From assembly GCA_000620545.1 (NCBI GenBank), contig JIBA01000013.1:434001-498000 (forward strand): 64,000 nt of DNA. The letters run 5' to 3'. The notes under the pieces are model-generated. The model saw nothing but the letters and a program-made list of their open reading frames with translations, was not told where the DNA came from and did not search any database. Shown here piece by piece: positions 19,308 to 56,504 of the stretch. Both the position numbers and the translations under genes were made by a program. Source of the stretch: Intrasporangiaceae bacterium URHB0013. GTDB lineage: Bacteria > Actinomycetota > Actinomycetes > Actinomycetales > Dermatophilaceae. Positions within the stretch are counted from its first letter, which is position 1. Each line of letters begins with the position of its first letter.

Positions 19308-19329
19308 AGCCTATGTCGGGCCACCGACG
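19308..19329 (-). promoter_or_regulatory. PafBC/RecA-NDp-type DNA-damage promoter of uvrC
   Basis: Minus-strand CGTCGGTG (19322-19329), exactly 8 nt, then TAGGCT (19308-19313), then 6 nt to the uvrC GTG. This matches the mycobacterial RecA-NDp consensus (TTGTCRGTG-N8-TANNNT) recognised with PafBC, with T to C at one position. The same architecture occurs at uvrA, uvrB and polA in this window. Confidence 0.75.
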
Positions 19330-19498
19330 TCGCCGCACGCCGTCCGGCCATGGCACCGGCTGGGCGGTTCGACGGGCCGCGACGGCCCTGGGGACGACGC
19401 GACGGCTGGACGACGGCACGCCAGCGACAGCGCTGGACGCCGACGCCCGGCCGGCGCCGAACGGGCGCCGACCGGGCGGCATACGACGGCGAGTGCCC

Positions 19499-20095
19499 TC
19501 AGCCTACGGTGAAGGTGTCGCCGTTGACCGTGATGTTCTTCGCCGTCAGGCCGGTCGGCGCCGGACCGGAGACGTGGGCCCCGGTGGCCGCGTCGAAGTG
19601 GCTCTGGTGGCACGGGCAGATGATCTGTCCGCCCTCGACGGACCCGACGGTGCAACCCTGGTGCGGGCACACGGCGTCGAACGCCTTGAAGGTGCCGGCC
19701 GTCGGTTGGGTGACGACGGTCTTGGTGTCGGCGTAGACGGTGCCGCCGCCGACAGGGATCTCGGACGTAGGGGTGCCGCCGGCGGCCGCGCTCGAGGTCG
19801 GCGCGGGGGTCGCCTCGGACGTCGCCGCCGAGGTCGAGCCCGAGGACGAGGTCGCGGCGGCACTCGACGAGGGGTCGGCGGGAGCGGTGGGGACCGGGGG
19901 GCTGCTGCACGCCGCCAGGGCCCCCGCGCCGACGACGACGCCCGCGACCCTGAGGACGCCACGCCGGTCGGTGACGTGCGAGACGCGGTCGCCCGGCGGG
20001 TGCTCGGAAGCCCTGCCGGCGTCGCGGCCGGAGGTGACGGAGGTGCTCGTGCTGCTGGTCGGCTCGGTGGTGCTGGAGTGCGTGCGCTCAGTCAT
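19499..20095 (-). CDS. Rieske [2Fe-2S] lipoprotein
   Basis: 198-residue secreted iron-sulfur protein. The N-terminus carries a twin-arginine-like signal ([12 protein letters not shown]) ending in the lipobox LAACS, so it should be a membrane-anchored lipoprotein. A Ser/Thr/Ala/Pro-rich linker of about 55 residues precedes the C-terminal Rieske domain with both cluster motifs, CPHQGC and CPCHQSHF. The start overlaps the uvrA stop by 4 nt (ATGA). The electron partner is unknown: no cytochrome bc genes lie nearby. Standalone Rieske lipoproteins of this size are common in actinobacteria, mostly without an assigned role. Confidence 0.92.
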
Positions 20096-53800: not shown

Positions 53801-56476
53801 TCAGTGCGCGGCCTCGTGCCAGGAGCTGCCGACACCGACGTTGATGTCGAGAGGGACGTCCATCGGCGCCGCGTTGCCCATCTCGTCGCGCACGAGCTTC
53901 TCGACGTCTTCGCGCTCCCCCTCGGCCACCTCGAGGACGAGCTCGTCGTGCACCTGGAGCAGGATCCGCGACGCGGCGCCCGCCGCCGTCAGCGCTCGGT
54001 CCACCCCGATCATCGCGACCTTCATGATGTCGGCGGCCGAGCCCTGGATCGGGGCGTTGAGCGCCATGCGCTCGGCCATCTCACGACGCTGTCGGTTGTC
54101 GGAGGTGAGGTCGGGCAGGTAGCGCCGGCGGCCGAACATCGTCGCGGTGTACCCGGTGCCACGCGCCTCCGCCACGACGTCCTTGAGGTAGGCGCTGACG
54201 CCCCCGAACCTCTCGAAGTAGCCGTCCATGAGGCCCCGGGCCTCCTCGGTGCTGATGGTCAGCTGCTTCGAGAGCCCGAAGGCGGACAGGCCGTAGGCGA
54301 GCCCGTAGGACATCGCCTTGACCTTCGAGCGCATGGCCGCCGTGACGTCTTCGGGCTCGACCCCGAACACCTTGGACCCGACGAACTTGTGGAGGTCCTC
54401 ACCGGTGCGGAACGCCTCGATGAGGCCCTCGTCTCCCGAGAGGTGCGCCATGACCCGCATCTCGATCTGGGAGTAGTCGGCCGACATGAGGGCCTCGTAG
54501 CCGTCGCCGACGACGAAGAGCCCACGGATGCGGCGTCCTTCCTCCGTGCGGATCGGGACGTTCTGCAGGTTCGGCTCGGTGGAGCTGAGCCGGCCCGTCG
54601 CGGCGATCGTCTGGAGGTAGGTGGTGTGGATGCGGCCGTCGTCGGCCACCGACTTCTGCAGGCCCTCGACGGTGACCCGCAGACGGGCGGCGTCACGGTG
54701 GCGCAGGAGTGCCTCGAGGAACGGGTGCTCGGTCTTGGCGTAGAGGTCGTTGAGCGCGTCGGCGTCGGTGGTCCACCCGGTCTTCGTCTTCTTCGTCTTC
54801 GGCATGCCGAGAGCGCCGAAGAGCACTTCCTGGAGCTGCTTGGGCGATCCGAGGTTGATCTTCTCGCCGCCGATGGCGTCCCACGCATCCTCCTGCGCCT
54901 GCGCGACCGTGGCGGCGAAGTCGCCCTCGAGCGAGTCGAGGCCCGGCACGTCGACGGCGATGCCGGTGCGTTCCATGCGGGCGAGCACCCCGACGAGCGG
55001 GATCTCGACCTCGGCGAGGAGCTGCTCGCCGCCGGTGGCCGCGACCTGCCCGTCGAGCGCGCCGGCGAGGTCGCGCACAGCGGTCGCGCGCACCATCTCC
55101 TTCTGGGCCGCCTGCTCGTCGGCGTCGCCGCCGAAGTCGAGCATGCCTTGGCCGTCGGTGGGCGCAGCGCCGCTCAGCTCGCGGTGCAGGTTGCGCAGCA
55201 CGAGGTCGTCGAGGTGGTAGGTGCGCTGGTCGGGCTTGACCAAGTAGGCCGCGAGCTGGGTGTCGCTCGTCAGCCCGGCGAGCGACCAGCCACGGGCGGC
55301 GAGCGCCTCGATCGGGCCCTTGGCGTCGTGCATGGCCTTCGGGCGCCCGGAGTCCTCGAGCCAGGCCCCGAGCGCGGCCTCGCCCTCGGGCGTCAGGGTC
55401 TGGAGGTCGATCCACGCCGCGCTGCCGTCGGGCGCCGACACGGCCACGCCGGTCGCGTCCCCCGTGCCGCGGGCCCAGGTGCCGGCGACGGACAGGCCGG
55501 AGCGCTCGCCGGACGACAGGTGCTCGGCCACCCAGGCCGGCACGATCTCGGGCACGAGGACCTCACCGTCGACGTCGAACCCCTCCTCGGCCTCCGGAGC
55601 CGCGGCCTCGACGGTGGCGAAGAGCCGGTCGCGCAGCACGCGGAACTCGAGCCCGTCGAAAACCGTGTGCACCTCCTCACGGCTCCACTGCGTGCGCTGG
55701 AGGTCCTCGACCTCGACCCCGACGGGGCTGTCCTTGACGAGCTGGTTGAGGCGCCGGTTGCGCAACACCTGGTCGAGGTGGTCGCGCAGCGACTGCCCCG
55801 CCTTGCCCGGGATCTTGTCGATGCTCGCGACGATGCCGTCGAGGTTGCCGTACTGGGTGATCCACTTCGCCGCGGTCTTGGGTCCGACGCCGGGCACGCC
55901 AGGAAGGTTGTCGGAGGACTCACCGACCATGGCCGCGAGGTCGCTGTAGCGAGCCGGCGGGACGCCGTACTTCTGCTCGACCTCGGTCGGGCCCATGCGC
56001 CACACCTCGGAGACCCCGCGCACCGGGTAGAGGATCGTGACGCGGTCGGAGACGAGCTGGAAGGTGTCCCGGTCGCCCGAGCAGATGAGGACGTCGACGC
56101 CCTTCTCCTCCGCCTGCGTGGCGATCGTCGCGATGATGTCGTCGGCCTCGTAGCCGTCCAGCTCGACGTACGGGATGCGCAGGGCGTCGAGGATCTCCTT
56201 GACGAGCGGGATCTGGCCCTGGAACTCGTCGGGCGTGCGGGCCCGTCCCGCCTTGTAGTCCGCGTACTCCTCGGTGCGGAACGACTGGCGCGCCTTGTCG
56301 AACGCCACCACGACGTGCGTCGGCTCCTCGTCGCGCAACATGTTGATGAGCATCGAGGTGAAGCCGTAGACGGCGTTGGTGTGCTGCCCCGTGCTGGTCG
56401 AGAAGTTCTCGGCAGGGAGTGCGAAGAACGCACGGTAGGCCAGCGAGTGCCCGTCGAGGAGGAGAAGTCGGCTCAC
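53801..56476 (-). CDS. polA: DNA polymerase I
   Basis: 891 residues from GTG 56476. The N-terminal 5'-3' exonuclease has LLLDGHSLAYRAFFAL, ELDGYEADDIIAT and GDRDTFQL. The central 3'-5' exonuclease-like domain lacks the acidic DxE motif (VAVSAPDGSAAWIDL there), as in other actinobacterial Pol I. Polymerase motifs A (SADYSQIEMRV), B (RSKVKAMSYGLAYGLSAFG) and C (LQVHDELVLEV) are intact. Works in gap filling after excision repair and in Okazaki fragment processing. Leaderless, with a damage-type promoter. Confidence 0.98.
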   Translation of the reverse strand: MSRLLLLDGHSLAYRAFFALPAENFSTSTGQHTNAVYGFTSMLINMLRDEEPTHVVVAFDKARQSFRTEEYADYKAGRARTPDEFQGQIPLVKEILDALRIPYVELDGYEADDIIATIATQAEEKGVDVLICSGDRDTFQLVSDRVTILYPVRGVSEVWRMGPTEVEQKYGVPPARYSDLAAMVGESSDNLPGVPGVGPKTAAKWITQYGNLDGIVASIDKIPGKAGQSLRDHLDQVLRNRRLNQLVKDSPVGVEVEDLQRTQWSREEVHTVFDGLEFRVLRDRLFATVEAAAPEAEEGFDVDGEVLVPEIVPAWVAEHLSSGERSGLSVAGTWARGTGDATGVAVSAPDGSAAWIDLQTLTPEGEAALGAWLEDSGRPKAMHDAKGPIEALAARGWSLAGLTSDTQLAAYLVKPDQRTYHLDDLVLRNLHRELSGAAPTDGQGMLDFGGDADEQAAQKEMVRATAVRDLAGALDGQVAATGGEQLLAEVEIPLVGVLARMERTGIAVDVPGLDSLEGDFAATVAQAQEDAWDAIGGEKINLGSPKQLQEVLFGALGMPKTKKTKTGWTTDADALNDLYAKTEHPFLEALLRHRDAARLRVTVEGLQKSVADDGRIHTTYLQTIAATGRLSSTEPNLQNVPIRTEEGRRIRGLFVVGDGYEALMSADYSQIEMRVMAHLSGDEGLIEAFRTGEDLHKFVGSKVFGVEPEDVTAAMRSKVKAMSYGLAYGLSAFGLSKQLTISTEEARGLMDGYFERFGGVSAYLKDVVAEARGTGYTATMFGRRRYLPDLTSDNRQRREMAERMALNAPIQGSAADIMKVAMIGVDRALTAAGAASRILLQVHDELVLEVAEGEREDVEKLVRDEMGNAAPMDVPLDINVGVGSSWHEAAH

Positions 56477-56482
56477 ACGGCA

Positions 56483-56504
56483 ACCCTAGTGGCGCCCACC
56501 GACA
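56483..56504 (-). promoter_or_regulatory. PafBC/RecA-NDp-type DNA-damage promoter of polA
   Basis: Minus-strand TGTCGGTG (56497-56504), 8 nt, TAGGGT (56483-56488), then 6 nt to GTG 56476. Full match to the core of the RecA-NDp consensus including the preferred TAGGGT. Confidence 0.82.

Follow-up and report, generated by a model that had tools for sequence, protein, structure and literature searches.

Four minus-strand DNA repair genes, uvrC, uvrA, uvrB and polA, lie scattered over some 37 kb of a 64,000-nucleotide (nt) stretch of the Intrasporangiaceae bacterium URHB0013 genome (contig JIBA01000013.1, positions 434,001 to 498,000; hereafter the window), raising the question of whether a single damage response controls them. 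An earlier note on this DNA had proposed that each is preceded by a RecA-NDp promoter, the LexA-independent class that answers to the paired regulator PafB-PafC (PafBC) in mycobacteria. Here we have followed this proposal through the window, the whole genome and related actinobacteria, and consider it highly probable, judging from sequence, that the four sites are PafBC-dependent promoters and represent an ordinary PafBC regulon.

All four sites were recovered where the note had placed them, on the minus strand and with the geometry that it described (Table 1). In 4/4, a spacer of 8 nt separates the -26 element from a TANNNT -10, and a further 6-7 nt, counted from the last T of the -10, lead to the start codon, as expected for a leaderless message. 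The pattern TGTCRGTG-N8-TANNNT is exact at uvrA and polA, and the uvrB site is exact to the published 6-base core; the motif reported for M. tuberculosis is TGTCGG, TGTCAG or TGTCAC, followed by N10 and TANNNT (PMC8151990). None of the four promoters has a recognisable -35. In the published model PafB reads the -26 motif, PafC contacts domain 4 of sigma-A, and single-stranded DNA (ssDNA) on the WYL domains activates the pair (PMC11804915); promoters built of a -26 element and a -10 alone would fit this model. No SOS box (TCGAAC-N4-GTTCGA, up to 2 mismatches) stands at the four promoters, the window as a whole holding 6 matches at a chance mean of 3.5, and a sigma-70-type scan of 13-24 kb returned neither a promoter nor a minus-strand terminator.

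An alternative reading takes such sites as constitutive leaderless promoters of the ordinary kind, served by the housekeeping sigma factor, in which the TGTC element aids binding and damage does not induce. In keeping with this, a -10 at leaderless spacing is common to non-repair genes such as coaE: among the window's open reading frames (ORFs) of at least 120 amino acids (aa), 11 have TANNNT 6-7 nt before ATG or GTG. A GTCGGT element accompanies the -10 in 4 of these 11, namely uvrA, uvrB, uvrC and polA, and of the other seven, two are without identification and none of the five identified is a repair gene. The finding was picked in this window, so the 4/11 result is not an independent test. 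The description of coaE as having the -10 only was borne out, in that TAGGCT stands 7 nt ahead of the start of the CoaE/GrpB ORF, with GCCTGGGC occupying the -26 position. The -26 element is absent from coaE and most other leaderless window ORFs, and it is enriched before repair genes (see below); moreover, promoters of the same type are damage-inducible at M. smegmatis recA, where induction is lost without pafBC (PMC5656591), and at SCO6735 of S. coelicolor, a UV-inducible gene (PMC5087735). We regard constitutive expression as improbable. As a separate observation, the -26 position of a leaderless MFS transporter gene (32379-33780, plus strand) is taken by AGTCACCT, which differs from the TGTCAC variant by one base.

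Could the sites be chance resemblances in a GC-rich genome? A loose scan of the window (up to 2 mismatches) gave 12 matches against a shuffle mean of 9.76, with 12 or more in 29/100 shuffles; since this is not above chance, we turned to genome-wide and comparative tests. Across the genome (4.57 Mb, 17 contigs), exact pairs with any spacer of 4-16 nt number 18, of which 13 have a spacer of 8 and 5 are spread over the other 12 spacers, an excess with a Poisson probability of ~1e-15 (background taken from the other spacers) and a binomial probability of 2e-11; the backwards pattern gave 6 exact pairs over all spacers. Allowing one mismatch, 81 matches compare with 14 for the backwards pattern, and the relaxed leaderless form TGTCR-N11-TANNNT-N6/7-RTG has 18 matches to the control's 1. 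Among the 81, 41 have their mismatch in the -10 and were left out of the family search; the other 40 have the -10 intact, and 24 of them are followed at 5-9 nt by the start codon of an ORF of at least 70 aa (22/38 listed, plus uvrB and uvrC). No ORF is listed for L019, L037, L048 or either L052 site among these loci, L039, L041 and L043 were left out of the family search, and a Pfam search of the ORFs at L009 and L010 found no match. The spacer and leaderless tests, the backwards controls and the conservation described below refute chance for the set, and we give this explanation next to no weight; a single site could still be fortuitous, uvrC being the weakest, and against this a TGTCGGGG form with leaderless spacing is kept before uvrC in Phycicoccus and Nostocoides.

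The genes behind these sites point to repair, an enrichment that the earlier note had proposed to test. Nine of the 18 relaxed leaderless sites precede clear repair or nuclease genes (uvrA, uvrB, polA, sbcD, endonuclease IV, an AlkZ-like glycosylase, a DEDD-exonuclease/GIY-YIG protein and two PD-(D/E)XK nucleases), or 6 of 15 once uvrA, uvrB and polA of the window are set aside; at an assumed background of 3%, the probabilities are ~7e-10 and 3e-6, respectively. Behind the other nine stand two DUF222 proteins, an EamA transporter, a GNAT protein, a DUF1905 protein, an AAA ATPase resembling RecF/SMC, a YgjP-like metallopeptidase, a methyltransferase and one protein without a Pfam match. One-mismatch sites with an intact -10 are also found before uvrC, recA (79 nt before its start), a PcrA/UvrD helicase, thyA, tmk and a GyrB/ParE-type gene. 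Neither radA nor dnaE2 turned up among the annotated matches of this genome, no search having been aimed at either gene.

Several loci among these sites are of interest in their own right. A leaderless site precedes thymidylate kinase in this genome, where it has one mismatch, and also in a Streptomyces-genus genome, where the gene is an MFS-tmk fusion; a one-mismatch site is found before thyA here, too. Three genes of the glyoxalase/bleomycin-resistance type (VOC; L036:51-458, L042:62-499, L053:719-1573) lie behind one-mismatch sites, two of them leaderless, and two further genes (L039, L041) resemble them by eye; the VOC genes are possible candidates for damage-inducible drug-binding proteins. 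Two RecA-NDp-type sites lie ~160 nt apart at C11:10.6-10.8 kb, and leading away from them in opposite directions are the UvrC/Cho-like DEDD-exonuclease/GIY-YIG gene (L372:1-1503) and a small ORF that has no Pfam match.

The proposal calls for a PafB-PafC pair, and an adjacent pair matching solved PafBC structures is present at C11:334-336 kb. The best solved relative of PafB is 9fnd chain X (E 8e-51) and that of PafC is A. aurescens PafBC 6sj9 (E 2e-54), with 7p5x also matched by both; we take 7p5x and 9fnd to be M. smegmatis complexes. PafB shares the stretch RMFERDK with the 9fnd and 7p5x chains and several relatives; its two arginines, 4 apart, may correspond, as judged by eye, to R44/R48 of the A. 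aurescens recognition helix. Tat-like and FKBP-like ORFs, also named by eye, lie near pafBC. The suggestion that the motif might precede pafBC itself did not hold, and autoregulation was rejected: no site at up to one mismatch occurs in the 6-kb pafBC region, and none precedes pafB in 20 genomes, this one included. Some other regulator might instead read the element. A ClgR/ClpR-like protein would be one candidate and a different WYL protein a second, the genome having WYL matches at C14:335083 and C11:418921 in addition to pafB-pafC and the literature containing a citation of a ClpR-like regulator of a RecA-independent motif along with mention of ClgR (PMC5656591). The mycobacterial structure, however, places PafB on the -26 motif (PMC11804915), and in a small sample, all 4 genomes in which no PafB match extends to the N-terminal part have no site either; we hold this alternative to be very unlikely.

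Conservation offers a further view of the putative PafBC-dependent promoters. In a uvrB scan of public genomes, a site at up to one mismatch and leaderless spacing was found at 17 of the best 80 loci (of which L057, L072 and L126 have little or no upstream DNA), all from actinobacterial genera or metagenome-assembled genomes (MAGs) so titled and none from other phyla; by uvrB, the nearest named genomes among these loci are Phycicoccus and Nostocoides. We then sought uvrC, polA and uvrA in 41 of these genomes (polA was not found in one), scoring TGTC-N12-TANNNT-N6/7-start and counting genes with usable upstream regions of at least 100 nt. Among 20 PafB-bearing genomes (19 Actinomycetes by name and one MAG titled only Actinomycetota), the site precedes uvrB in 20/20, polA in 17/20, uvrC in 9/19 and uvrA in 6/19, with shuffles at 0.00-0.03 per set. 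Eight other genomes (two Bifidobacterium, Mobiluncus, Corynebacterium, a Coriobacteriales MAG, two freshwater actinobacterial MAGs and a Rothia MAG) have it at none of the four genes, and 13 deep-branching or loosely titled genomes, two of them MAGs titled Actinomycetes, have it at uvrB in 5/13, polA in 1/12, uvrC in 0/13 and uvrA in 0/11. Over 42 genomes, 187 exact leaderless sites stand against 2 backwards controls; a PafB match extending over the N-terminal part was obtained in 38 of them, 25 of which have at least one exact leaderless site, against none of the other 4 (two Bifidobacterium, Mobiluncus and the Coriobacteriales MAG; Fisher 0.02, relatedness uncorrected).

Two observations in these genomes stand apart. 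Of the 13 deep-branching or loosely titled genomes, 5 have a TGTC form before uvrB; it reads TGTCAC, TGTCAT or TGTCGC, stands at leaderless spacing, and belongs to three Acidimicrobiia, an Actinomycetota MAG and a MAG titled Acidobacteria. A recoded -26 element was considered for these genomes, but we do not claim it as new since TGTCAC is already reported as an M. tuberculosis variant. In a Propionibacteriales MAG, 7 of 11 sites are near-identical 32-mers on different contigs, which suggests a multicopy gene family under one promoter.

A number of points, besides the loose window scan, weigh against the PafBC assignment. Of the four window sites, those of uvrB and uvrC each depart from the pattern by one base, and the uvrC site is one base off the 6-base core as well. 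About half of the genome-wide sites precede genes without a known repair role, and the 3% background for repair genes is an assumption, the excess of 6/15 being only 0.002 at a background of 10%. The 20-genome group was formed only after sites had been seen, and over all 41 relatives the counts are uvrB 25/41, polA 18/38, uvrC 9/40 and uvrA 6/38. Exact leaderless sites are missing from 13 of the 38 genomes with a PafB-like match (an Actinomycetota MAG, the Rothia MAG, Corynebacterium and 10 deep-branching or loosely titled MAGs), which tells against a simple rule tying PafB to the site.

LexA and the SOS response control uvrA, uvrB and recA in many bacteria, and uvrA appears to be the gene at which the two systems meet among these relatives. 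Of 19 uvrA regions in the 20-genome group, 10 lack a site even when one mismatch is allowed outside the -10, and 4 of those 10 (two Nocardioides, a Nocardioidaceae MAG and a Propionibacteriales MAG) have an SOS box at one mismatch; the Saccharothrix uvrA has both a PafBC-type site and an SOS box, and perfect SOS boxes precede uvrA and uvrB in the two Bifidobacterium genomes, both without a PafB match. The claim that the whole excision-repair set forms one regulon thus fits this genome and does not extend to its relatives generally, given the 6/19 at uvrA, the 9/19 at uvrC and the LexA-type box at some uvrA genes. In print, LexA binds uvrA in S. venezuelae, where uvrA and recA are under LexA/SOS (PMC9380542), and mycobacterial uvrA and uvrC answer to both PafBC and SOS (PMC8223512).

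By analogy with the mycobacterial work, activation by ssDNA, sigma adaptation and damage inducibility would be expected here as well. Upon DNA damage, the WYL domains of PafB and PafC would take up ssDNA, whereupon PafB would contact TGTCRGTG at about -26, enabling the housekeeping RNA polymerase to use a promoter with a -10 but no -35, and transcripts would start at or beside the start codon to give leaderless uvrA, uvrB, uvrC and polA messages.

The consequences may reach beyond repair, as the note had also suggested for the genes downstream. The 4-nt overlaps of uvrA with the Rieske-domain gene, uvrB with the YjbR-family gene, uvrC with rapZ and rapZ with yvcK (Table 1) make co-transcription likely, and are silent on induction. 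Likewise, rapZ starts -11 to +113 nt from the uvrC stop in 12 of 20 evaluable genomes, by a simple motif test that can miss cases, which makes uvrC-rapZ co-transcription plausible. We infer that the Rieske, YjbR and rapZ-yvcK-whiA genes ride on the same messages as the repair genes upstream. Were the uvrC operon induced as one unit, damage would also induce rapZ, yvcK and whiA; a literature search turned up no report of damage induction of whiA among the papers it listed.

Table 1. Promoter sites and genes in the window (positions within the 64,000-nt stretch)
Feature	Position	Strand	Description
uvrC promoter, putative RecA-NDp-type	19308..19329	-	CGTCGGTG-N8-TAGGCT; first base of -26 element off consensus; 6 nt to GTG 19301
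uvrA promoter, putative RecA-NDp-type	23216..23237	-	TGTCGGTG-N8-TAGCAT; 7 nt to GTG 23208
uvrB promoter, putative RecA-NDp-type	37714..37735	-	TGTCGGTC-N8-TACGGT; 6 nt to ATG 37707
polA promoter, putative RecA-NDp-type	56483..56504	-	TGTCGGTG-N8-TAGGGT; 6 nt to GTG 56476
uvrC	17223..19301	-	692 aa, leaderless spacing; NCBIfam NF001824, 1089 bits
rapZ	16309..17226	-	NF003828; 4-nt overlap with uvrC stop
yvcK	15326..16312	-	TIGR01826; 4-nt overlap with rapZ
whiA	14266..15300	-	TIGR00647; 25 nt after yvcK
uvrA	20092..23208	-	1038 aa from leaderless GTG; NF001503 (the frame searched extends 7 codons further 5')
Rieske-domain protein	19499..20095	-	PF00355; 4-nt overlap with uvrA stop
uvrB	35593..37707	-	704 aa; NF003673
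YjbR-family protein	35225..35596	-	PF04237; 4-nt overlap with uvrB stop
polA	53801..56476	-	891 aa; NF004397
coaE-grpB fusion ORF	39359..40567	-	leaderless -10 without -26 element; internal negative example

The motif was also followed in Streptomyces. In 13 genomes of the genus holding S. oceani, the one among them in which PafB was sought, 300 exact leaderless sites stand against 1 control. For one of these genomes (G050), 20 of 27 sites were fetched and 10 of those 20 proteins scanned; the sites precede uvrB, uvrC, a RarA/MgsA-type ATPase, a DnaX-type clamp-loader, a RadA-like protein (so named by eye; its Pfam matches are ATPase, zinc-ribbon and Lon-type domains), an O6-methylguanine methyltransferase and the MFS-thymidylate kinase fusion, along with a HAD hydrolase, a DUF4253 protein and a SWIM zinc-finger protein. 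These sites may bear on a 2022 LexA study, which remarked that in S. venezuelae the M. smegmatis PafBC motif did not seem to be conserved, and that a comparable response had yet to be demonstrated in Streptomyces (PMC9380542). At base 5, the element usually has A in two Streptomyces-genus genomes (21/27 and 21/30) and usually G here (11/13 exact sites). The PafB helix was considered as a cause of this preference and no explanation was found; RMFERDK is also present in Streptomyces oceani, so this stretch does not obviously account for it.

Taken together, these results permit a broader reading, which we offer tentatively and with rather less than even confidence. PafBC, not LexA, may be the default controller of nucleotide excision repair across Actinomycetes, fixed at uvrB and polA, with uvrA as the point at which PafBC-type and LexA-type promoters are swapped and with the whole set out of SOS control in the present lineage. 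Damage might also drive the uvrC-rapZ-yvcK-whiA message, tying ssDNA sensing to regulators of cell-wall precursors and division, and Streptomyces might possess a large PafBC regulon whose motif the 2022 study missed. More generally, our results suggest that the damage response worked out in mycobacteria may be readable from sequence in many other Actinomycetes, with uvrB and polA as candidate targets widely and uvrA by lineage.

Much of this system is known from elsewhere. The promoter class has been traced to S. rimosus recA and M. tuberculosis by citing papers (PMC8223512, PMC5656591, PMC2375139, PMC5087735), a review extends it to other Actinobacteria and places UvrABC in the M. smegmatis PafBC regulon (PMC8223512), and for S. 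coelicolor, SIGffRid predictions placed related motifs upstream of uvrB, polymerase I, radA, recF and others (PMC2375139). With the promoter class, the UvrABC targets and the Streptomyces predictions already in print, our finding is an instance of a known system, and the earlier note had overstated its novelty; what is new is modest, namely the present lineage, the alternation of uvrA between PafBC-type and LexA-type promoters, and the 300 sites in 13 Streptomyces-genus genomes. The likeness to the mycobacterial PafBC/RecA-NDp regulon lies in the same -26 element and spacing, the pafB-pafC pair, and UvrABC and RecA as targets; the differences are that the family is another one and that uvrA here has no LexA-type box. 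The LexA/SOS regulon differs in employing a repressor and another element, whereas the window sites have no SOS box and would be read by an activator. The sites also resemble the Streptomyces recA-type motif, which at S. rimosus recA is TTGTCAGTGGC-N6-TAGggT; within this common form, sites in the S. oceani genus (two genomes) mostly read TGTCAGTG, and the exact sites of this genome mostly TGTCGGTG.

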